The notes beneath the pieces were generated by a model. That model did no database searches. It was not told where the DNA came from and was given only the letters and a program-made list of their open reading frames with translations. Position numbers and translations under genes: made by a program. From contig NC_088300.1 of NCBI RefSeq assembly GCF_032854445.1, positions 56,952,984 to 57,016,983 on the forward strand: a stretch of 64,000 nt of DNA. Direction: 5' to 3'. Below are positions 3,201-38,632 of this stretch, one piece after another (the first letter of the stretch is position 1; each line of letters starts with the position of its first letter). The DNA is from Liolophura sinensis. Taxonomy: Eukaryota; Mollusca; Polyplacophora; Chitonida; Chitonidae.

Positions 3201-6200
3201 TACATTGCTTCTTTATCCTTTGTTCAAAGCCTTGCAAACTTTAAACATTCAAATGGCTTGATTTTGTTAAAATAATGACAAATTTTAAAGGTCATAGCTT
3301 GAGTAGTCTGTACATAGGGTTTAAAACGAAAACAAAGCCTTCAAAACGCACGTTCCGGTGACCCACATTGCGTCACCTGTCAGGTGTCGGGCGCGCGCTG
3401 CACCTGTGTAACATGCATCAAGCACTGCTGGAAAAAAATTACTTTTAAGGAGATTCGGGACTCAATCAGTTCATGGAAGAAACGTTTGGGCGCTGTTTGC
3501 CGAGAAGATGGAGGATCAATTGATCACCTTTTCAAGTAAAACCAGGTAGAACATCATTTTGAAATGCCTGGAACGTGTCTTTGACTCTATTTTGATTTTG
3601 GTCCCATGAACAGAAATCTTAAGGGATGAAATAGAAATTTGGTCTGTATACTTAGGACGTAATGGCTTTTGAGTGTGTAATTTTTTAGAAGCTGACGTAA
3701 GAGGGTTTTGGAGATATTGAGTGTCAGAGAACGGCCCATTTTTTTATGCCCACCTAATATATTACCTAACTAGACTTTTATTACTATTCTTGTATACCAT
3801 GATAATATATGTGTAATATATACATAGCATGTTTTGCACACCAAAGAGAGCAACGCAGATTGAAACACCTTGGTGATGGATGAATTAGTACATTTTTCCC
3901 ATTATGTACAAACTCTAAACATGGCCAGATAATGTTTTATATCCATCTGTATGTTCCAGGCTGTAGCTGTATACATCTGGCTGCTCAGTTTGGCCACACG
4001 TCCATAGTAGCCTATCTCATAGCCAAAGGGCAGGACCCAGACATGCTGGACAAGAATGGAATGACTGCGCTGATGTGGGCAGCCTACAGAGTGTTCTCGT
4101 ATGTGCCCTCCCATAATGACATTGTTTTTAAAGTTACCAGTATTATGTATGATTGCCATGAAATTATTTTCAAACAAAAGATTCCTAAAAGACCATTGTG
4201 GTTCGTAGGATGGAAGTAGTTTAATGCCTAGTGTTGGACAAAACTTTACATTGTTTTAATAATCACAGAGTGTTTGGGATACTCATCATTAAAGTCTTAA
4301 ACTTTTCTTCCAAGTCAAACATGGATGAAATCACGTGGTCATTTATTTTAATGATCTTCCAGGGTTACCTGTCTAAGTTGCTGGAGAACTTTTTATACCT
4401 TTGGAAATTTGGTCTCTAATACCATTATGCACCTATAAAACTGCTACTGAGTACATCAGCTTTTGTATTCACAGTAGTGTTTGTTAAGGTTTGAAAACTG
4501 ATCATGAGGTCTTTATTTGGTACTTTATTACAGGTATGACCCCTGTCGTCTTCTCCTTACTTTGGGTGCCAATGGAAACAAGGCAGACAAACTGCAGGGT
4601 AACACGCCGCTTCACTGGGCATGTACATCAGAGAATACTGTCATCATCAGGCTGCTGCTAGAGACACCAGGCATTGAAATTGACAAGCTCAACAACAATG
4701 TAAGCTTTTCTATGGAACTTATGAATGTTCATATGTTGTCTTTCTAGTTTTAACAGAACATATGGTGACATTCACATCTTTTATAGGCTTTTTTCTAGAT
4801 TTTTCTTCATCAAGACTTTACAACTTTCTTGAAATTTTGAAATCTTAGCCATATATTTGGAAAAGCATTGTTTGTGAAAAGAAATGTATATTGCAGATTT
4901 GCATATTATGTTTTTGTAGTAAATATGGCACTACATTAAGCCCCAAGCATTCATTCATTTATTAAATACGTTTCATGCACTTGCTGGTTTTACATGACCA
5001 GATTGAAGCACGATTCATTTTGCCTTCTTTGAAGAGCAGCCATGTGTTACAGCTGTCACAAGAAAAGATGTCCAGGATTTAATGTAATGAGATTTAATAT
5101 ATACCAGAGAAGTTTGAACACGTGACAAAAATGAACACCAATAAGATATATCAGTTAAGTACTGCAGTGTTAATTTAGGGTGCTAGCTATAATGGTTTTG
5201 TTGTTTTACCTTTTTTAGGGTCAGACCCCAATGGACATTGCTGTGTCTAAGAAGAGCACAGGTGTGGTGAAGCGCTTGTGGCTGGAGAGGTCACAGAGAG
5301 GCCTGGACCAGAAACACTGCCTGAAGGGCTTCACATCTAATAAGGTCAGTGACTAGCCTTGCTGGGTACCTAACAGAGTTGTCATCTTCTAGAATATATC
5401 TTCTGTCCTGTTGATATCTAACTCATCTACTTACAGAAGCACGTCCAAATCTTCTGAAACCAGGGTGGATGAGATGAAAGATTTTTCAGAAGGCTTTCTT
5501 GTCATTCCACAAGCTGCAATTCAAGTTGCCCTGCTGTTCTGTAAAACAGCTGGGTACTGTTTGTTTCAGAGTTCTCAACATGTGCCTGAACAGGCAACAA
5601 TGAAACAAAAACATAGACTCGCATTAAATGTAGCATACGGAGATCCTGGTCATAGATCAATGATGTGGCCCTAAACTGTACCCCAAAAGGTTGATTCTAA
5701 GGTGGGGAGTTTAAGGGAAACAATTGTATTTTAATAGAATTCATTGCTTTTTAATCATTTTAGGTTAGGTATGTCCTTCTTGATGAATGAAATGACTTAA
5801 TCATTATGCCAGTGTGGTTATGCCTGGGTATTTAACACTGTACTTTTATGAAGTTAGAATGAAGATCAAAGGTTTCTTTTAGTTAAAAGGTTTTTGTTTT
5901 ATTGTGTATACTTACGGATCAGTTTTGCATTGTGAGTGATGATCAGAGTTGTCTCCACTTGGTGTGTTACAGGCGTTCCGAAACAGAATCATGTGGCTGT
6001 TCCCCTTCTTCATGATATTCACCATCGGCTATGCCTTTGAGTTCAAAAGTCCATGGTGGATGAAAATTCTTGTTATAGTCTCCTTGTTTTTTATTGTCAG
6101 AACAGTCACTAGGTAAGTGTCTTCACTGTTAGATACCATGTCTAGGGGGGAGATCTGAATAACCTTAGGAGTACAGATGAAAACATTGAAAAAAAGCCAA

Positions 6201-9200
6201 AGAAAAAAAAAACAAAACAAATAACTAACATGCATATTTGAGAAAACTTGTAACCTGGGGCAGTGACATTCCACAATTCACAGACAGATGAACTTGGATC
6301 TACAGATACATAGGATTGTTGCTATAATTCTGTAAAGAGAGAGGACATGCCTGGTTTGTAAATTTTTGCATTACCTCCTTTCTTGTTGACCCGAACATTT
6401 TCCTTGAGATGATTTAGATCAGTAATCCTGATATCCAGAATATTACTAAAACTGTGAATCTCTTATTATGGTGCAGAAGAATGTAAAGCTGTTCTTAAGA
6501 TATAGATTTATTTATTTATTTGATTGGTGTTTTACGCCATACTCACAAAGGGTATAGTTAGGGTATAGAAGAATGCATAGCTGGTCTTGGGGGGATAGAA
6601 GAGTATAAAGCCGCTCCTATGGTATGGAAGAGTATAAAACTCTTCTTAGAGTATAGAAGAGTACAAAGCTGCTCTTAGGATACAGAAAAGTATTAAGTTG
6701 CTCTTAGGGTATGGAAGAGTATAAAGCTGCCCTTAGTGTATGAAAGTTTATTTCTACACGCGGTAGATTCTAGGCCCACCATTGGTTTAGAGTGGTCATA
6801 TGCAGTGTGGTGAAATGTTTTCCTCACACCACACTCGCATGACTCGCCAAGTGCAGCTGTCATGTAGATCTGATGAAAAGCAAGTCAAATATGCCGCTGC
6901 ACTGATTACTGTCATTTTACTGTTATTTTTTTTCTTATTTTTGACCATGTAGTGACATCAGATTTGTCTGTGATGACCCCAGCTGAACCCAGGCCAGTCT
7001 AGAAATCCGACAGAAATCTCTCTATCACGCTCAGATATCTAGCAGCAATAGTTACAATTTACATTTACAACAACTTTGCACTCGACCTAATTTCACTGCA
7101 GAGATTTATTTATTTATTTATTTGATTGGTGTTTTATGCCGTACTCAAGAATATTTCACTTATATGATGGCGGCCAGCATTATGATTGGAGAAAACTGGA
7201 CAGAGCTCGGGGGAAACCCACCACCATCCGCAGGTTGCTGACTGACCTTCCCGCCAGAGAGGAAGCCAGCATGAGCTGGACTTGAACTCATAGCGACCGC
7301 ATTGTTGAGAGGCTCCTGGGTCCAACTGAGCCACGGAGGCCCCCCACTGAAGAGAAGTGGACGAAACGACCTTTTTGTTACTTTCAATTGCTATTGAGAC
7401 AACTTAATCTGTTGCTGATATTCTCTGGATGTAACATCATCAAGTTAAATATCCATTGTTAAAAAATTATAAGTAAAATAGAGCACAATTGTTTTATATT
7501 TATGCCATGCAGAATTTGCGCTTAGAAGTCAGGAGACTCAGGATCAAGCTTGGGTTGGGTCATACCAAAGATACCAAAAATGGTACTTGTTGCTGCCTCG
7601 CTTGGCACAGAGCACTGAGACGTTAGAGCAAGGAAACAGTGTCATGTCTGGTGTTTTCGGCATCAGTGGCGGCAGCAATTTAACAGCATGGACTTTCCTT
7701 GCTACAGGAAGACACAATATCCGTACATACACCTAATGACTCCTGGTCGTCATGTGACTGAAAAATTGTTTAGCTTGACACATATGTATATATCTACATA
7801 CATATACACACATACAGAAGTTAAACTTTCCAAAGTTAGTCTCCGGTTGACCTGCATGTAGGTCTATATTTGATGTCACACTTTGACCTGATTTCGCACA
7901 ATCTTTCTCAATTTCTTTTCTAATTTTTATGAAAATCTGGTTAGTCCTGGGGAATACTACACTCCCGCTTCGCATAATTTTTTTTTGCAAGATCGAGGTT
8001 ATCAGTAATTCTAAATGCCCTTATATCAGGAGAATGTTTGTTTGGAATGTTGAAGTTAACGGTATTGTGTGTATTGCACTTGCCATCACCCCTGTGGAGT
8101 ACCTCTGTACTAACCCCCCTAACTTAGTCTCTCACTGTTCATGATTCTCCAGGTATTTCTTTGACCAGACCGTGCAGGAGATTCTACCCATATCACTCTA
8201 CCTGTCCACCAAATTTTGGATGTACTGGACCTGGTTTGTCTACTTCTGGCCCTGTATCCTTTACCTAGACATGCCTACCAGGGATGTCAATAATGTGGGA
8301 ATTGTAAATCAGGGTTTTGTATTGCCGTGATTGGGTGTACCTCATAATTGATCACAGATGGACAATGATATTGACAATTTAGAAAAAAATTATAAAGATA
8401 TTACTGGTATATTATTGTTTTGTTGAAAGAAATGAGGAACTGAGTATAGTCACATTTTTAGGTGATAAAATCTGGGTACGGACTAAATTGGCTGCAAGTC
8501 ATGCATTGATCGGTACTCTTAAGTTTGTGACAGGAGTAATATTAAGTATGCTAATCACCTTTATATGTACTTGTATGCTAAATATGACCAGATAACGTTT
8601 AAAACATCACGCTCTGCTTCTTGTTTAACCATTGATAAATCTCATACCTTCTTAACCAAGCCCAGATGTGTCTGATTTCACAACTCAGCTGCTGTTTGGG
8701 ATAAACACCATTCTGTTGATGTATAATTTTCTCAAAGCCTGGAAAATGGACCCTGGATATGTGAAGGTTGCCAGGGAGGAGAAAATCCAGGTACGGTTTA
8801 TGTATTTTTTTTAACAGTAAATATTGTTCTTGAAGAGTTATACATATATTCAAAAAGCATCACACACATGTATGTACCAGAAAATGTTGTCATGCATGTA
8901 TCCAATTTCTCCAATTTTAAAACATTTGTGCCAAAGAGTGGATGATCATGCTCCACCTGTGGTTTGTTTGCATACATGTACTTTTGTTAGTACATAATGT
9001 CCAGGATATGTTAAGATGCACCCTAACTGCATCTTAAGAAATAAAAACGGTACGTTTCATGAATCCTTTGACTTGTAATATTTGTGGGATATCCATGTAA
9101 ACAGGTACTTTTGTTTGTATAGAACATCCTGGATTTAGCTGAGAATCAGTCCATGACCCTGGAACAGTTCTGTAGCACCTGTCTGACACGCCGACCCATC

Positions 9201-12200
9201 CGCTCCAAACACTGCTCCATGTGTAACCGCTGTGTGGCCAAGTTTGACCATCACTGCCCCTGGGTGGGCAACTGTGTAGGTGAGTAACTTTACCCTGACT
9301 GCCTCAGTTCATGTCTTCAACTGTGTTGGTGGATGGGTTATTTAGTTCTTATTAACACTGTCCCTAAGCTTGGCAATTGTGTGAATGTGGAACTTGACTC
9401 TTAGCATCAGAGCACTGGCTATGCACAATCATGGTAGGGTAACTTGACTGTAAGCATCACTGGCCTGGGTGGGCAACTCTATGGGTGTGCCTCTTTATGA
9501 GTGGGTAACTCCTAATGGGAGCATCACTGGCCTGGGTGGGCATCACTGGCCTGGGTGGGCAACTCTGTGAGTGGGTAACTCTCACTGGGGGCATCACAGA
9601 TCTGGATAGGCAATATTTGAATGGGTCACTGTAATGGTGAATAATTTTATTCTGGGTATCAGGGATTTAGGTGGGTAACTGTGTAGAAGGGTAACATTAA
9701 TCTAAGTATGAGAGACATGGATGGGTAAATATGTGGGTAGGTACCTTTACTCTGAACATCACAGACCTGGATGGGTAAATATGTGGGTAGGTACCTTTAC
9801 TCTGAACATCACTTACTTGATTTAGGTAACTTAGCTTTTATTACCACTGACCCATGAATGTGTTTATAGATGACTTAGATCTTTGTATTTAGTATGACTG
9901 ACCCTAAGTTGGCAACTCTGTGGGTGGTTAAGTATTACCATCCCTGACCACGGGTGTGTCTTTTAGTGTTGGTGGGTAAGCGTGCTCTTATTATTACTGT
10001 GGGGTGTTTGTTGGTTTTCGGTGCATCTTGTAATAACTGCTGACATCTTTGAAGGGTCAAACTCAGTTTACACAGCTGGATGAGATTTCCATCTTACATC
10101 TAGCTGACATCGTCTGTTAGGGTCAAAGTATTAAATTTGTGTTACGTTTTTCTTTATAGTAAATATAAACAGTAAATATCTATATTTTTTAGATATATCT
10201 ATATCTAAACAACTTTATGATTAATGATATGTCTTTCATTATTTGTTTTTATATTTTCTTGTGTTTCAGGTGCAAACAGCTGCAAGTACTTCATAGGATA
10301 TCTGTTTTTTCTTGTGTTTCAGGTGCAAACAACCCCAAGTATGTCATAGGATATCTGTTTTTTCTTGTGTTTCAGGTGCAAACAACCCCAAGTATGTCAT
10401 AGGATATCTGTTTTTTTTCTTGTGTTTCAGGTGCAAACAACCACAAGTATGTCATAGGATATCTGGTTTTTTTTCTTGTGTTTCAGGTGCAAACAACCAC
10501 AAGTACTTCATAGGATATCTGTTTTTTCTTGTGTTTCAGGTGCAAACAACCCCAAGTATGTCATAGGATATCTGTTTTTTTTCTTGTGTTTCAGGTGCAA
10601 ACAACCACAAGTACTTCATAGGATATCTGTTTTTTCTTGTGTTTCAGGTGCAAACAACCCCAAGTATGTCATAAGATATCTGTTTTTTTCTTGTGTTTCA
10701 GGTGCAAACAACCACAAGTACTTCATAGGATATCTGTTTTTTCTTGTGTTTCAGGTGCAAACAACCCCAAGTATGTCATAGGATATCTGTTTTTTTCTTG
10801 TGTTTCTGGTGCAAACAACCACAAGTATATCATAGGATATCTGTTTTTTTCTTGTGTTTCAGGTGCAAACAACCACAAGTACTTCATAGGATATCTGTTT
10901 TTTCTTGTGTTTCAGGTGCAAACAACCCCAAGTATGTCATAGGATATCTGTTTTTTTTCTTGTGTTTCAGGTGCAAACAACCACAAGTATATCATAGGAT
11001 ATCTGTTTTTTCTTGTGTTTCAGGTGCAAACAACCCCAAGTATGTCATAGGATATCTGTTTTTTTCTTGTGTTTCAGGTGCAAACAACCACAAGTACTTC
11101 ATAGGATATCTGTTTTTTCTTGTGTTTCAGGTGCAAACAACCCCAAGTATGTCATAGGATATCTGTTTTTTTCTTGTGTTTCAGGTGCAAACAACCACAA
11201 GTATATCATAGGATATCTGTTTTTTTCTTGTGTTTCAGGTGCAAACAACCACAAGTACTTCATAGGATATCTGTTTTTTCTGTTTGGGCTGATCATGTGG
11301 TTTATGCATGGATGCTTCACGTGTATGTATGATTTTCTTTTCATTAAAATCAATTAACCATAGATTTTAATGTTGTACTGAATTTGGCTTCAGAATGCTA
11401 GGAATGAAAAAGACCACCAGATAATTTGATTTTCATACACGTATTTCTTACCTGTGTAGTGACATCACCTTATGAAGTTCAAAGCCTATTTATTTGTTGT
11501 GAGATAATTTGCATTTGATGTATGTATTTGTGTGTAGATCAAAACAACCTTAAAGTAAACAGCAGACAGAAATCAAGTCTACTTATCTCAGCTGTCTCCC
11601 CTTAAACAGATTGGGATGCGAACTGTCCCTGGTCTTTCTACGAGGAGGGAATTACAGGTGTGCTTTGGAAGATCTGCAGTCACTCCCCCTGGGTAGGCTG
11701 GATGGGGCTGAATGGTCTGATTCACCTAGGCTGGGTGGCAGCTCTTCTTTGCTGTCAGCTCTACCAGGTAAGCATTAAGCCTTGGATCATGCTCAGTTTC
11801 TATTGACTGGTGAACACTCTTGCTTTTTTTTTTAATATGCTCAATGTTGTGCTTCATTCAATTTAATGTAACAAAATCAACACGAACACAGTGTGGCAGC
11901 AGTTTAGTCTAATGGGATCAGAGAATAGCTTGATTAATTAGAAAACAAAGGAAAATCAGGTAACATGATCTGACATAGTTTTATTATTATCCAGTAGGGC
12001 TTCACTGAATTGCCTCCCTTGGGATCAATCGCCATTTAAATCTTTTGTGTGTTTAGGAGTAAACTGTCGTTAGGTGGGACCTCTAAGTGTAGGTAATAGC
12101 GAGTTACAAAGTGCATGTGGAACAAGCTAGGTGAAGATTTCCTTCATCAGATATTTTAATTTTGTTAAATTATGTCTTAAAGCCCAGGATAAACAATTTA

Positions 12201-13918
12201 TGTTGCTTTTAAGCCATTGATTTATTTATTTATTTGACTGGTGTTTTACGCTGTACTCAAGAATATTTCACTTATACGACGACGGCCAGCATTGTGGTGG
12301 GAGGAAACCGGGCAGAGCCCGGGGGAAACCCACGACCATCTTCAGGTTGCTGGCATACCTTCCCACGTACGACTGGAGAGGAAGCCAGCATGAGCTGGAC
12401 TTGAACTCACAGCGATTGCATTGGTGAGAGACTCCTGGGTCGTTACGCTGCGCTAGCATGCTAACCAACTGAGCCACGGAGGTTCCTTTAAGCCATTGAA
12501 AGGAAATTTAAATATCCTCTGATGAAATATATATGTAAATGTAAAACAGATAACTTTGACAAATTCCATAATATATGTTCCAAAGCTGAGAATGAACAGC
12601 TTAAAACCTCTTGAAATTTCAGCGACATTTCAATGGCTGATATCATGATTTTCTACATTCTGTCACCTATAAAATAATTGTCACTGTTGTGACATAACTG
12701 CATAGGCCGACTTCAATAGTCAAGTTCCTACCTGTTGTAGTGTCATTCCTCAAAAAATAACTTCACATTACATCGTAGCTATTATTGCGTGGCATGGGAG
12801 GTAATTCAGAGGATGCCTATACAGGCTCTAAGCATCCTTTTTTTTCCGTATGTATGCATGTACAGGTATACAGTGCAGAAGATTTTTGTATAATGTAGAT
12901 CGTACCTTTGAAGTTCTCATTGTTATAATGGCATGTATTGTCATTCATACATATCAGCTAGGGAGATGATCTGTTGTCTGTTAAATGATTTATTTTCTGA
13001 ATAAAACTTGTATATATGACGGTTCTGTAAGATTATACTTTGTTTCTACTTAACCAGTATTTGTTGAAATTTTGCAGTTGTTTTTCCTTTCTGTTGTCAC
13101 CATCAGCAAACATTTCCTTTGCTTTCTGACAGGTGATTTTCCTAAGCATGACCACCAATGAGAGACTCAATATTCACAGATACTCACACTTCAATGCTGG
13201 AAAGCCCAACTCTCACGCTAGTCCATTCCAGTATGTTGTTTTACTGGTCATAATTGACTTATCAGTGGTTTAATAATTGATGTATCTTTGTGTTCATTTT
13301 GCTAAAACTTTCACTGTATGATCAGGATTTTTTTTTTTGGGATGTTATCATTGCATTTAAGTTCAATCCGTAATCTAACAGTACCAGAAATTAAATATGT
13401 GTTCAAGGAAATTTGATAACTGAGCAGAAAGAAAGTTTAACTAAAAGTGATCTTTTTTAATTTAAATGTAACATTTGTGGCCTACACCAGAGTTTGGAAA
13501 TAACTTTTTAGATAGATTTAAATTAAACTTGGATTTTTTTGTTTTGGTGTCCAGTCAGTAAACCTCAATGAAATAAGAAAAAACTTTTTATTTTTTACTT
13601 AGTCGTGGATATCTGAAAAACTTGGTGGACTTTTTCGGCTGGCGCTGTTGTGGGTTATGTCGTCCTAACAAAGTGGACTGGACCAAGGAATTTGAACTGA
13701 ATGATTCCACCCTGTCTAATGTCATCAGCAGCTTGGATGAGTTCAAGAGGTCACAGACCTATCAGCATTCCAAGACAGGGTACAGCAGTCACCATGGAGA
13801 CGGCGGCCATGGTCATAGCCACACCCACCAACATAGTTCTAACTGTAAACATAATCAGCACAGCCACCAGGCAGGCAGTGGGCCTCAGCAGGGTCGCGAG
13901 AACTTTCAGTTTGTCTGA
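291..13918 (+). CDS. ZDHHC17: Palmitoyltransferase ZDHHC17/HIP14-like (ankyrin repeats + DHHC), complete
   Basis: Exons: 291-344, 1031-1275, 2186-2263, 2992-3062, 3960-4098, 4534-4699, 5219-5344, 5973-6112, 8153-8253, 8666-8790, 9123-9279, 11239-11322, 11610-11767, 13133-13230, 13603-13918. All introns are GT-AG and every phase matches, giving 2058 nt and 685 aa (human HIP14 is about 632). The product S-acylates cysteines of neuronal and vesicle proteins at the Golgi. The N-terminal half (residues about 50-290) holds ankyrin repeats with signatures such as [36 protein letters not shown] and LMWAAYR. Hydrophobic segments follow. The cysteine-rich domain is at about 432-466, with catalytic DHHC at about 457-460 inside [16 protein letters not shown]13 has DQHC, so this is the 17-type. 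GCFTYWD, TTNER and CCGLCRP further match HIP14. The C-terminus is an unusual His-rich tail ending FQFV. Intron 11 carries splice-site arrays at both ends. The first coding exon ([10 protein letters not shown]...) is chosen because its donor is phase 0, as exon 2 requires. Confidence 0.94.
1300..1516 (+). mobile_element. tRNA-headed SINE (family A), diverged
   Basis: Starts GGGGCCTCAATGGCCGAGG (degraded tRNA-like A-box region), has a B-box-like GAGTTTAAGTCC, the family tail 'GTGAAATATTCTTGAGTACGG', and ends in an AAATAAATA run. Lies in ZDHHC17 intron 2, just after exon 2. Confidence 0.8.
1738..2042 (-). mobile_element. tRNA-headed SINE (family B)
   Basis: On the minus strand it begins with a tRNA-like head (GGTGGCTTAATGGTTAGAGC, then GGGATCAAACC as B box) and ends in the tail motif read on the plus strand as TTTAACGTCGTACT, flanked by GAATGAATGAATG repeats. 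Related copies lie at 7505-7770, 31128-31322 and 59950-60265. Confidence 0.65.
2450..2709 (+). mobile_element. tRNA-headed SINE (family A), full length
   Basis: Begins GGGGCCTCCTTGGCTCAGTT, has the body ending GTGAAATATTCTTGAGTAC and a CAAATAAATCAAATAAG tail. Inside ZDHHC17 intron 3. Confidence 0.85.
3167..3754. mobile_element. MITE-like element with 27-bp perfect terminal inverted repeats
   Basis: The left end starts GGTGGGCATAAAAAAATGGG and continues CCGTTCT (3167-3193). The right end (3728-3754) is its exact reverse complement. The 588-bp interior has no open frame of note and a GC-rich core near 3350-3420. It sits in ZDHHC17 intron 4. No convincing target duplication was seen. Size, lack of coding capacity and perfect inverted ends fit a non-autonomous DNA transposon; the superfamily was not identified. 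Confidence 0.75.
6471..6745 (+). repeat. Minisatellite, about 29-30 bp unit, interrupted by a SINE fragment
   Basis: About seven degenerate copies of a unit like GTATAGAAGAGTATAAAGCT followed by GCTCTTAG, in ZDHHC17 intron 8. The array is split at 6506-6548 by a family A SINE 3' tail, so the array predates that insertion. Confidence 0.7.
6506..6548 (-). mobile_element. SINE family A, 3'-end fragment
   Basis: Contains TTTATTTATTTGATTGGTGT and TTTACGCCATACTC, the reversed tail of family A. Lies inside the minisatellite at 6471-6745. Confidence 0.7.
7105..7345 (-). mobile_element. tRNA-headed SINE (family A), near full length
   Basis: Reversed family A copy: T-rich tail complement, then GATTGGTGTTTTATGCCGTA, ending in the complement of the tRNA-like head (GAGCCACGGAGGCCCC). 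In ZDHHC17 intron 8. Confidence 0.85.
7505..7770 (+). mobile_element. SINE family B copy
   Basis: The head contains TCAGGATCAAGCTTGGG (B-box-like). The body shares TGGTACTTGTTGCTGCCTCG and the CCTAATGACTCCTGGTCGTC tail region with the copies at 1738-2042 and 31128-31322. In ZDHHC17 intron 8. Confidence 0.6.
9400..9830 (+). repeat. Degenerate tandem array derived from the 3' end of exon 11 plus its splice donor
   Basis: Exon 11 ends CATCACTGCCCCTGGGTGGG then CAACTGTGTAG|GTGAGTAACTTTACCC. The intron just downstream repeats this: CATCACTGGCCTGGGTGGGC + AACTCTATGGGTG (near 9455), the same motif twice near 9520-9570 with AACTCTGTGAGTGGGTAACT, then weaker copies to 9830, for example CCTGGATGGGTAAATATGTG and GGTACCTTTACTCTGAACAT. 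Isolated echoes occur near 9340-9450 and 9890-9970. The copied segment encodes the HHCPWVGNC active-site motif. The copies are diverged, and reading through the true donor gives an immediate stop (GTGAGTAA). Confidence 0.75.
10270..11238 (+). repeat. Tandem array of 18 extra splice acceptors plus exon 12 heads
   Basis: Units of 53-57 bp, each made of a T-rich tract, CTTGTGTTTCAG, then GTGCAAACAACCACAAGTA and CATAGGATATCTG, i.e. the 3' splice site and first about 41 nt of exon 12. Copies start at 10270, 10323, 10376, 10431, 10487, 10540, 10595, 10648, 10702, 10755, 10809, 10863, 10916, 10971, 11024, 11078, 11131 and 11185; the genuine exon is the 19th, at 11239. Sub-types alternate (CCCCAAGTATGTC, CCACAAGTACTTC, CCACAAGTATATC), giving a partly dimeric order. 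Copy 11 has lost its AG (TTTCTGG). Each unit encodes [14 protein letters not shown]. Confidence 0.97.
12221..12486 (-). mobile_element. tRNA-headed SINE (family A), full length with target-site duplication
   Basis: Complete reversed copy in ZDHHC17 intron 13. TTTAAGCCATTGA stands on both sides (12208-12220 and 12487-12499), a 13-bp target-site duplication that proves retroposition and fixes the boundaries. Confidence 0.93.
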
Positions 13919-29821: not shown

Positions 29822-32800
29822 ATGTCGTGGAACCAGGGAGGCGGAGGGTATGGCTCTACAAAGGCCTACACTGATGAGCCGGGTATGGGAGAGTACAGAG
29901 ATGACCCTGGGGGAAGAGGAGGATACCAGGACCAAGGCAAATCATTGCATGAATCATAGATGACAAGTGTTTCTTTTCCTAATATATACCAGACAGTCTT
30001 TTTTTTTTATACTCCCACTATGAAGTTTAGGGATAGGGGAGGGGTACCCTGGAATCACTGTGTCTGTCTGTAGACATGATATTTTTTTAGATATAGATCC
30101 TTCTAAAGTACTGCAGCAGTTTCTGTGAAAATTTGCATAATTTTTTTCCATGATAACTTGTGCATGCATACCTAACTTTTATGTTGTTTGCATCATTATT
30201 TACAAAGTTAATCATGATGTACACATTCATAGTTTTGATTTATTTGATTGGTGTTTTAGACTGTGCTTCCAAAGTGTTGAGTTACATAGATTTCTGTGAC
30301 AGTTTTGTATGTATCTTTCCTATGACCTGAAATTGTGCTTTCTTAGTGTTCCTGACAACATTTTCAGAGTTTACAGTTATTCCCATCTAGTTCTTTTCCT
30401 TTACATATATGTATATCCAAAAGGCAGGGAATGGTGGGTAGTCTGGGTGGAGAGGCAGAAATTTTGGAAAACTGATCTGTGTTGGTCTTTAGATATTTTG
30501 CTTTGAATTAAACACATTTCTCATGGTATCTCAAGAATTGTCTTTAACCATGATAATTGTGGTGAACTATACACAAAGATTGAAACAAAAAGAACACCAG
30601 GTGTTAAATCAAAAGAGCATAAAAATGTTGTCAATGTTAAGGGGATGTGTTGTTTACTTTGATGTAGATTATAGTACCTGTTCATATTGTACACTGCAGG
30701 CTATGGTAACTTCACCAAGTTGTGCGACCAAATCAGCAGCAACATTTTTACCATAAATTCAGGGGGTAAGTCAGTTATAGTTATTTATTTATTAAATCTT
30801 TCTGATATTGTCTGTAATATGTTTGATTCATCATTGGCGTATACATGACCTTTTTTAAAATCAACATTTTATTTGTTTTCATCAACTTCATCAACTTTTC
30901 ATCATAATTGATGGTGATATAGTTCTTGGGAATATCGGTAAATGACATGTTAAGATCAGGACGAATATTTCAAAGCACCTGTAAAGTGTGTACATGCAGT
31001 TATGTTTCATTAATGTACTTTATTTTTCAGCCAATAATATTGACAAAGCCATGAAAAGTATTGGTACCCATAAAGATGGAGTGCAGTTAAGAGATAAAAT
31101 GTGAGTACAAACTATGCTACAAAGCAGACATGACTGGTTGACCCTGTGTCAGTATAATGTAACTGTTAAGGGAGTCATGTTTAGTGTTTTCAGCATGATA
31201 CTTCAGTGGCAGCAGCACTTTGGTGACGTGGACTTGCCGTGCTACAAGAAGAGACTGTATGTGTGCACACACTTGATGACTCCTCATTGTTATATGTCTG
31301 AAAAACTATTAAGTATGATGTAAACCCTCAAGCATATATACATGTACATCCTGATTCAGTGAAGCAGTTTAAAGAGGGATGGGAAACTTCTACAGATATT
31401 CTGATGAACAGTATTTGGGTATGCAAGCGTGCCTGGTTTGATCTGTTGATATGTTACTTTTACAACCAACCTTCAATGTAATGTTTTAATACAGATCATC
31501 TTGAGTGATTTGAATCGTGTGTGGATTTAACATTGAAAGTTTAGGCAATTGTTCCACTGGGCTGTGTTTGGTTTCTGTGTTCATAAAGCTGACTGCAATA
31601 GTATGAGTGAAATATTCTTTGTTCATAACCAAATTATATGGTGAACAGCATGCACAAGCAAAATAAGGTGGTTTAAATCTACCTGATGTTTTTTTTATTT
31701 TTTTTGTTTGTGATTACAGTCATGATATATCTACCAGCACGCAGAAGGTGGTCAATGAAACCATGAGATTATTTAAGAGGATGGCCTCACAAAGAAATAT
31801 AGATAAGGTAAGTTGTTCATGTTATGCAAGGAAGTCATCCTAGATAAAGTAAGTTGTTCATATTCTCTAAAGAAGTCATCCTAGATAAGGTAAGTTCATA
31901 ATCTGTAAGGAGGTCATCCTGTATAAGGAAAGTTGTTCATGTTCTTTGAGGAAGTAACCCTAGACAAGGTAGCTTGTTCAGGTCCTGTAAGGAAGTCGTT
32001 ATAGATAGGGTAAGTTAATACTGTGTTCTGAAGTCATCCTAGATAAGGTTAGTTGTTCATGTTTTGTTACAAAGCCATTCTTGATAAGGTAAGCTGTTCA
32101 TATTCTGTACAGAAGTCACCCTAGATACTGTAAGTTCTTATTCTCCAAGGAAATTGTCCTGTTTGCCTGCAGGAAGTTCACTCAGTGCAATCAGAAAGAA
32201 TGGTGTAGTTTTGAGTGCAAACTCTTGTATCGTTAAAGATAAAAAATAGTACTACTGTATTATGTGACCTGTTAGAAATATTATGCAACTATTTTGGGAT
32301 CACATTTACTATAACATGGGTGTCTGAATAAAGTTTCGCAAACAGTTATTTAGAGTCAAACGTTTGTGAACTTGAGAAGTTTCTGAACGAAAGTTGTTTC
32401 TTCTGTGCCGCTGGAACATGATGAGACAAGTAATTGGTAAATTAATATTTACAGAGGTTGCCTTACATATTTCGCAGATCACATGATTCAAGACGGCTAT
32501 TTTTACCTTCAGGGACAAAAGAGTTCGAATACAAAACACCTCTATTGGGTTATGTAGAAATGAAATCTTGGGAAAATTATGGCTAAAGTCTGATAGTTTT
32601 CCTTTGATAAAATAATCTGCAGCTCACATGACTGATCTCTAGTGTCTAATTAAATAGAATTGTCGATGGGGAGTGGGCCATGACCAAGTGGTGAAGGTGC
32701 TTGGCTCGCAATTCTTCGGTCACACTGGGCGGACTCAATCCTGCTCATGTGTGGTCTTCCACAATTAAAACTACAAGTAGCTTGCATCGTATAAGTAAAA

Positions 32801-37811: not shown

Positions 37812-37872
37812 GGCTGTTTTTGTATAAGTTAAATGGTCTTTAGTACAGTGTGAAAATCCATTCAAATACATC
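37812..37872 (+). mobile_element. Diverged SINE family A tail at the edge of a minisatellite
   Basis: GTATAAGTTAAATGGTCTTT then AGTACAGTGTGAAAATCCAT and TCAAATACA line up with the family A 3' end (GTATAAGTGAAATATTCTTG, AGTACGGCGTAAAACACCAA, TCAAATAAA). The minisatellite unit begins inside this tail. Confidence 0.55.
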
Positions 37873-38632
37873 CGAGACATTACACTATGATCTGGGTGAA
37901 AGTCAATTCTAATGCACCTGAGATGTTACACTGTGGTCTAGGTGAAAATCCATTCTAATACATCCGAGATGTTACACTATGGTGTGGGTGAAAGTCCATT
38001 CTAATGCATCTGAGATGTTAGACTGTGGTCTAGGTGAAAATCCATTCTAATACATCCGAGATGTTACACTATGGTGTGGGTGAAAGTCCATTCTAATACA
38101 TGCGAGACGTTACACTATAGTCTGGGTGAAAGTCCATTCTAATACATGCGAGACGTTACACTATGGTGTGGGTAAAAGTCCATTCTAATACATGCGAGAC
38201 GTTACACTATAGTCTGGGTGAAAGTCCATTCTAATACATGCGAGACGTTACACTATGGTCTGGGTGAAAGTCCATTCTAATACATGCGAGACATTACACT
38301 ATGGTGTGGGTGAAAGTCCATTCTAATACATGCGAGATGTTACACTATAGTCTGGGTGAAAGTCCATTCTAATACATCCGAGACGTTACACTATAGTCTG
38401 GGTGAAAGTCCATTTTAATACATGCGAGACGTTACACTATGGTGTGGGTGAAAGTCCATTCATATACATGCGAGACGTTACACTATAGTCTGGGTGAAAG
38501 TCCATTCTAATACATGCGAGACGTTACACTATGGTCTGGGTGAAAGTCCATTCTAATACATCCGAGACGTTACACTATGGTCTGGGTGAAAGTCCATTCA
38601 TATACATTCGAGACATTACAGTATGATCTGGT
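37850..38632 (+). repeat. Minisatellite, 17 copies of an about 46-bp unit
   Basis: The unit contains GAGACGTTACACTATGGTCT and GGGTGAAAGTCCATTCTAAT plus ACATGC. Seventeen copies can be counted. Two main sub-types, CTATAGTCTGG and CTATGGTGTGG, tend to alternate. It lies about 0.7 kb beyond the syntaxin poly(A) signal; no gene is seen from here to 41.08 kb. Confidence 0.96.

Follow-up and report, generated by a model that had tools for sequence, protein, structure and literature searches.

Eighteen young tandem copies of an acceptor junction ahead of one exon of a predicted ankyrin-DHHC palmitoyltransferase gene in Liolophura sinensis

How a run of splice acceptors could build up ahead of the one that yields the protein, and how a gene might go on working behind it, is the question raised by an intron of Liolophura sinensis within the 64,000-nucleotide stretch of DNA that was analyzed (the window; positions are counted from its first letter). 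TRF reports an array at 10254-11279/11281 with a period of 53 nt, 19.1 copies, 92% matches, and a score of 1741, a head-to-tail run of many units inside the range of about 10-100 nt that defines a minisatellite. Cutting the array at GTGCAAACA separates 19 intron-exon junctions from 10270 to 11239, the copied junction being TTTTCTTGTGTTTCAG/GTGCAAAC... (a slash marks a splice junction throughout), with 18 copies upstream of the real one at 11239. The junctions are spaced 53-56 nt apart, and 969 nt lie between the first acceptor and the real one. Each unit consists of a 35 nt exon head (GTGCAAACAACCACAAGTACTTCATAGGATATCTG), a T tract of variable length, and the identical intron end TTTTCTTGTGTTTCAG; it thereby spans an intron-exon boundary whose source can be named, the junction of the exon at 11239-11322, as in a tandem duplication. 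AG is present at 17 of the 18 upstream copies and at the real acceptor, and the eleventh junction (before 10809) has TG at 10807-10808, one dead decoy. With AG/GT at 18 of the 19 junctions and TG/GT at the other, the units run GT...AG, and their boundaries have the form of dual-specific splice sites. The upstream copies make up a young acceptor array at 10254-11238 on the + strand, ahead of the acceptor at 11238/11239, inside a modelled intron of 1959 nt (9280-11238, + strand). In a search of the 609 Mb assembly (632 contigs), the array was found at one place only, its exon likewise once, and no other contig carried a second copy of the locus. The preliminary description had spoken of eighteen tandem copies of an acceptor plus exon head, which TRF and the junction splitting confirm, and of an AG kept in all but one copy, as is the case. 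It had also placed the correct acceptor last, and the last copy is indeed the only one that continues into the remainder of the real exon; of its unit size of 53-57 bp, the tandem units stand but the upper bound does not.

The gene that carries this intron was modelled with at least 13 coding exons on the + strand, from 1031 onward to a stop codon near 13917. Its product matches Ank_2 (E = 5.2e-40) and DHHC (E = 1.4e-32) in Pfam and ZDHHC9, 5, and 20 in the PDB, so that ankyrin repeats are combined with a DHHC domain whose motif, FDHHCPW, is encoded in the exon at 9123-9279. The reading frame is unbroken across the modelled exons, one intron boundary of the model (8254, CCT/GTATCC) being doubtful. 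Judged by these matches, the host gene is a predicted intact ankyrin-DHHC palmitoyltransferase of the ZDHHC17/13 type, and the Pfam results agree with the DHHC enzyme gene named earlier. Modelled exons measure 71-245 nt and the shortest modelled intron 287 nt. Upstream of the array, the coding exon at 9123-9279 (+ strand; gene model and Pfam DHHC) ends at the donor TAG/GTGAGT at 9280. Downstream, the real coding exon at 11239-11322 (+ strand, 84 nt) joins the exons at 9123-9279 and 11610-11767 in frame, and at the protein level the array lies just ahead of the hydrophobic stretch after the DHHC region. Two other repeats were seen: a 29-nt repeat of about 6.5 diverged copies at 6558-6746, within the intron at 6113-8152 of the same gene and away from junctions, and a dispersed repeat at 12230-12486 with pieces near 1290, 7090, 24480, 41700, and 62230 of the window, which we take to be of a type typical of molluscs.

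The pattern of differences among the copies bears on how the array grew and how old it is. Four types of unit, A, B, C, and D, can be told apart by the letters of their exon heads; their order is ?BBDABABABCABCBABC, and the real exon head is of type A, identical to units 5, 7, 9, 12, and 16. Two successive 7-unit blocks, at 10487-10862 and 10863-11238 (+ strand), are identical at 372 of 376 positions and share the same series of T-tract lengths, which marks a block duplication as a late growth step. The founding segment may have begun in the T-rich end of the intron (TATTTTCTTG) and ended about 43 nt into the exon, at a T-rich stretch that matches it (TTTTTTCTG); TTTTCT occurs at both ends of this segment, consistent with an origin of the array by T-rich slippage. 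The segment would have been duplicated in tandem and would then have grown by unequal exchange or slippage, with the copying of the 7-unit block as the latest step, and the upstream copies would have become intron because only the last remained joined to the rest of the real exon. The recent expansion that had been proposed is borne out by the identity of the two blocks, and slippage between T-rich stretches, also proposed, is plausible in view of the shared TTTTCT. The further idea that the AGs are held by selection as decoys or alternatives is unsupported, and AG conservation was rejected as a sign of selection: the 18 units contain about five private substitutions, one of which changes an AG to TG (the chance that five random changes strike at least one AG is about 0.17), and the columns of the splice signal show no significantly lower variability than those of the exon head (1 of 16 intron-end columns against 6 of 35; Fisher p = 0.41, computed with 7 rather than 6). 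The youth of the array explains these substitution data, which speak neither for nor against selection. B-type copies encode NNPKYV where the real exon has NNHKYF, so the coding sequence seems not to be maintained in them. Taken as a whole, the preliminary interpretation is partly supported; it did not include the AG/GT geometry, the in-frame position of the last two decoys, a decayed array of donor copies at the intron's other end, or arrays elsewhere.

The decayed donor array lies at 9311-9979 (+ strand), in the 5′ part of the intron, and consists of copies of about 50 nt of the 3′ end of the upstream exon with its donor, the junction CATCACTGCCCCTGGGTGGGCAACTGTGTAG/GTGAGTAACT. Five alignments to this junction score 42.5-60; the scores did not exceed 36.5 among 200 shuffles or 33.5 among other segments of the window, and the autocorrelation peaks at 50, 100, and 150. 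The acceptor junction of the exon at 9123-9279 has one decayed copy, at 8958-9030 (+ strand), within the preceding intron (8791-9122); its local alignment scores 44.5-45, and 60 shuffles reached no more than 33 (z 6.3). When the 24 junctions of the 12 modelled introns were compared with the young array masked, only the donor at 9280 (z = 9.6) and the acceptor at 9123 (z = 6.3) stood out. The exon at 9123-9279 is thus preceded by an old acceptor copy and followed by an old donor array, and the next exon has the young acceptor array. Between the donor array and the young array (9990-10253), no decayed acceptor copies were detected (score 22, shuffle mean 21).

Junction copies also occur at other genes. 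The next gene in the window has a donor-junction array at 31800-32136, with a 41-nt unit in about 8 copies, that starts where an exon-like ORF ends (about 31721-31808, ...MASQRNIDK/GTAAGTTG; array junction GATAAG/GTAAGTTGTTCATG...). On the same strand, syntaxin-7-like exons follow downstream (these exons gave E = 1.2e-11), and the 29-codon exon at the array probably belongs to this syntaxin-7-like gene. On contig C1 (about 8.727 Mb; locus L054, 2910-3105), about four 46-nt copies of an AG/GT acceptor junction lie upstream of an exon of the GH18 (chitinase-like) family (Pfam E = 3.1e-10). Minisatellites number 3 in the 64-kb window, and 27 bystander arrays were counted in 127 kb of loci that had themselves been chosen for arrays; the genome seems rich in units of about 50 nt. 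Two of the three window arrays lie on junctions, a proportion not counted as significant since one of them prompted the choice of the locus. Arrays of the donor word AGGTAAGT and of the reversed word gave 664 and 547 matches, with no enrichment seen at low power, and about 16 and about 15 distinct arrays in C1 up to 67 Mb, counted by hand from lists; for TTTCAGGT the matches were 301 against 231 for the reversed word. None of the other TTTCAGGT arrays (L040, L042, L043, L045, L050, L051, and L053) could be confirmed to border on a clear exon. Donor-word arrays are not clearly commoner than reversed-word arrays, and a general preference of minisatellites for junctions is unsupported. Three further arrays are recorded as observations. 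A 49-nt array of 4.3 identical copies (L049, 4243-4452; C1, about 54.809 Mb) has AAG/GTAAGTGTGATC in its minus-strand unit and could derive from a short exon's donor. A 46-nt minisatellite of 17 copies lies at 37850-38631 of the window, downstream of the syntaxin-like exons, with no exon seen at its edge. A very long minisatellite, with a unit of about 51 nt in about 99 copies, lies on C6 (about 12.00 Mb; L046, 2143-7201), and several other loci have comparable long arrays. One could generalize that in this lineage splice junctions recurrently seed minisatellites, that introns grow from both ends by copying their own donor and acceptor junctions, and that, thanks to AG/GT, the spliceosome can remove the copies through successive rounds of splicing up to the last acceptor; we regard this generalization as doubtful.

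What each acceptor would produce can be predicted by frame analysis. Acceptors 1-10 and 12-16 lead to a premature stop codon that precedes the next exon junction by 168-976 nt, acceptor 11 has lost its AG, acceptors 17 and 18 stay in frame with no stop and add 36 and 18 residues (108 and 54 nt), and acceptor 19 gives the correct product. The exons would measure 299-1053 nt for acceptors 1-15 and 245, 192, 138, and 84 nt for acceptors 16, 17, 18, and 19, respectively, so that against the 71-245 nt range of the gene only acceptors 16-19 give ordinary exons under exon definition. With these predictions in hand, we consider that the array is probably a minisatellite that was seeded at a junction in a minisatellite-rich genome and is tolerated through exon definition, nonsense-mediated decay (NMD) of most misuse, and possibly re-splicing. 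It would then be one of the genome's arrays of about 50 nt that landed on a junction, with selection for decoys unnecessary. Exon definition would disfavor the distant decoys, mRNAs spliced at decoys 1-10 or 12-16 would meet an early stop codon and be removed by NMD, and decoys 17 or 18, if used, would add 36 or 18 residues ahead of the helix that comes after the DHHC region. We infer from the sequence that splicing chooses the last acceptor.

Re-splicing could in principle erase the use of an early acceptor. Because the junctions read AG/GT, splicing to an early acceptor would re-create a donor, TAG/GTGCAA, that might be spliced again to a later acceptor, and since the units are GT...AG throughout, such a chain could end only at the last acceptor and would give the same mRNA once it was reached. 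On a generic matrix, CAG/GTGCAA scores 0.09, within the range of the gene's own modelled donors (-5.6 to 7.2, including 0.04 and -1.0), and TAG/GTGCAA, the donor after a first splice, scores -1.6, which by this measure is weak or marginal. Compared with the shortest modelled intron of 287 nt, one unit (53-56 nt) probably lacks the length needed for removal as an intron, and re-splicing would therefore need to jump several units. In human cells, exon junction complexes repress re-created donors unless these are strong (PMC6224609). The weak donor and the block by exon junction complexes place exon definition and NMD first, with re-splicing as a possible aid that may or may not occur at all.

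The same stop codons could be given a function: the decoys might form a selected poison-acceptor switch that cuts the amount of functional enzyme via NMD, with copy number tuning expression. All 15 AG-bearing decoys with premature stops would serve such a switch, but the AGs show no sign of being preferentially kept, one of the few private substitutions having destroyed an AG, and an array this young has left little time for selection to show. We consider a switch of this kind unlikely. The in-frame acceptors 17 and 18 raise the alternative that the array supplies protein variants longer by 36 or 18 residues, and their stop-free exons of 192 and 138 nt are of ordinary size. However, the varying unit lengths shift the frame in most combinations, the added residues, with NNPKYV or NNHKYI instead of NNHKYF, would come after the conserved DHHC region and ahead of the next helix, which leaves such variants very unlikely as an explanation. 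It is just as improbable that the copy number, especially the repeated 376-nt block, was made or altered by the assembler. Short reads indeed cannot span a 1-kb array of 53-nt units, but the units vary in type order and in the length of the T tract and the two blocks are distinguished by 4 sites, which a simple contig duplication would not produce, there are zero Ns in the window or in the other loci examined, and the older decayed junction copies in the gene would be left unexplained.

A tolerated, junction-seeded minisatellite resembles several known systems in part. Human introns derived from tandem arrays reportedly have their boundaries in direct repeats, with both boundaries matching (the work of Zhuo et al., 2007), whereas here the two ends of one intron carry arrays of two different junctions. 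UBC and VCX3A contain tandem arrays of dual-specific AG/GT sites, whose expansions are argued by the authors to be less harmful because they can be removed by splicing (PMC10809524). As there, the present units lie head to tail, are bounded by AG/GT, could act as donor or acceptor, and form an expansion that splicing could remove; unlike those coding repeats, they are non-coding, made of an intron end and an exon head, and variable in length. UBC units are multiples of 3 that are kept or removed as coding units, whereas units of 53-56 nt have only a potential for dual use. In potato RdRp, one tandem duplication across an intron-exon boundary gave a new intron (PMC4974935, which also describes the AGGT model of Rogers and the ATP2A2 example of Hellsten). 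There too the duplicated segment is the 3′ end of an intron with the 5′ end of an exon, including the polypyrimidine tract and acceptor, but here there are 18 extra copies rather than one and the GT stands at the junction itself rather than being recruited from within the exon. The array and intron gain by tandem duplication thus appear alike in mechanism only. With recursive splicing and RS-exons (PMC6224609) the array shares an acceptor followed at once by GT, so that a 5′ splice site can be re-created; the differences are that GTGCAA makes a weak re-created donor and that a recent tandem array stands in place of a single recursive exon. Searches of an open-access library turned up no account of so large an acceptor array or of a closer molluscan junction minisatellite. 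The array in the DHHC gene would appear to combine features of the potato and the UBC and VCX3A types, with many non-coding copies and traces on both junctions of one intron.

The locus amounts to a natural experiment on the choice of a 3′ splice site, in which up to 18 rival acceptors share the same last 16 intron nucleotides and differ mainly in position. RNA could tell whether the spliceosome takes the first acceptor, takes the one closest to the body of the exon, or chooses at random, and also if it re-splices AG/GT. The array also illustrates how an intron can gain length through copies of its own junctions while the gene survives.
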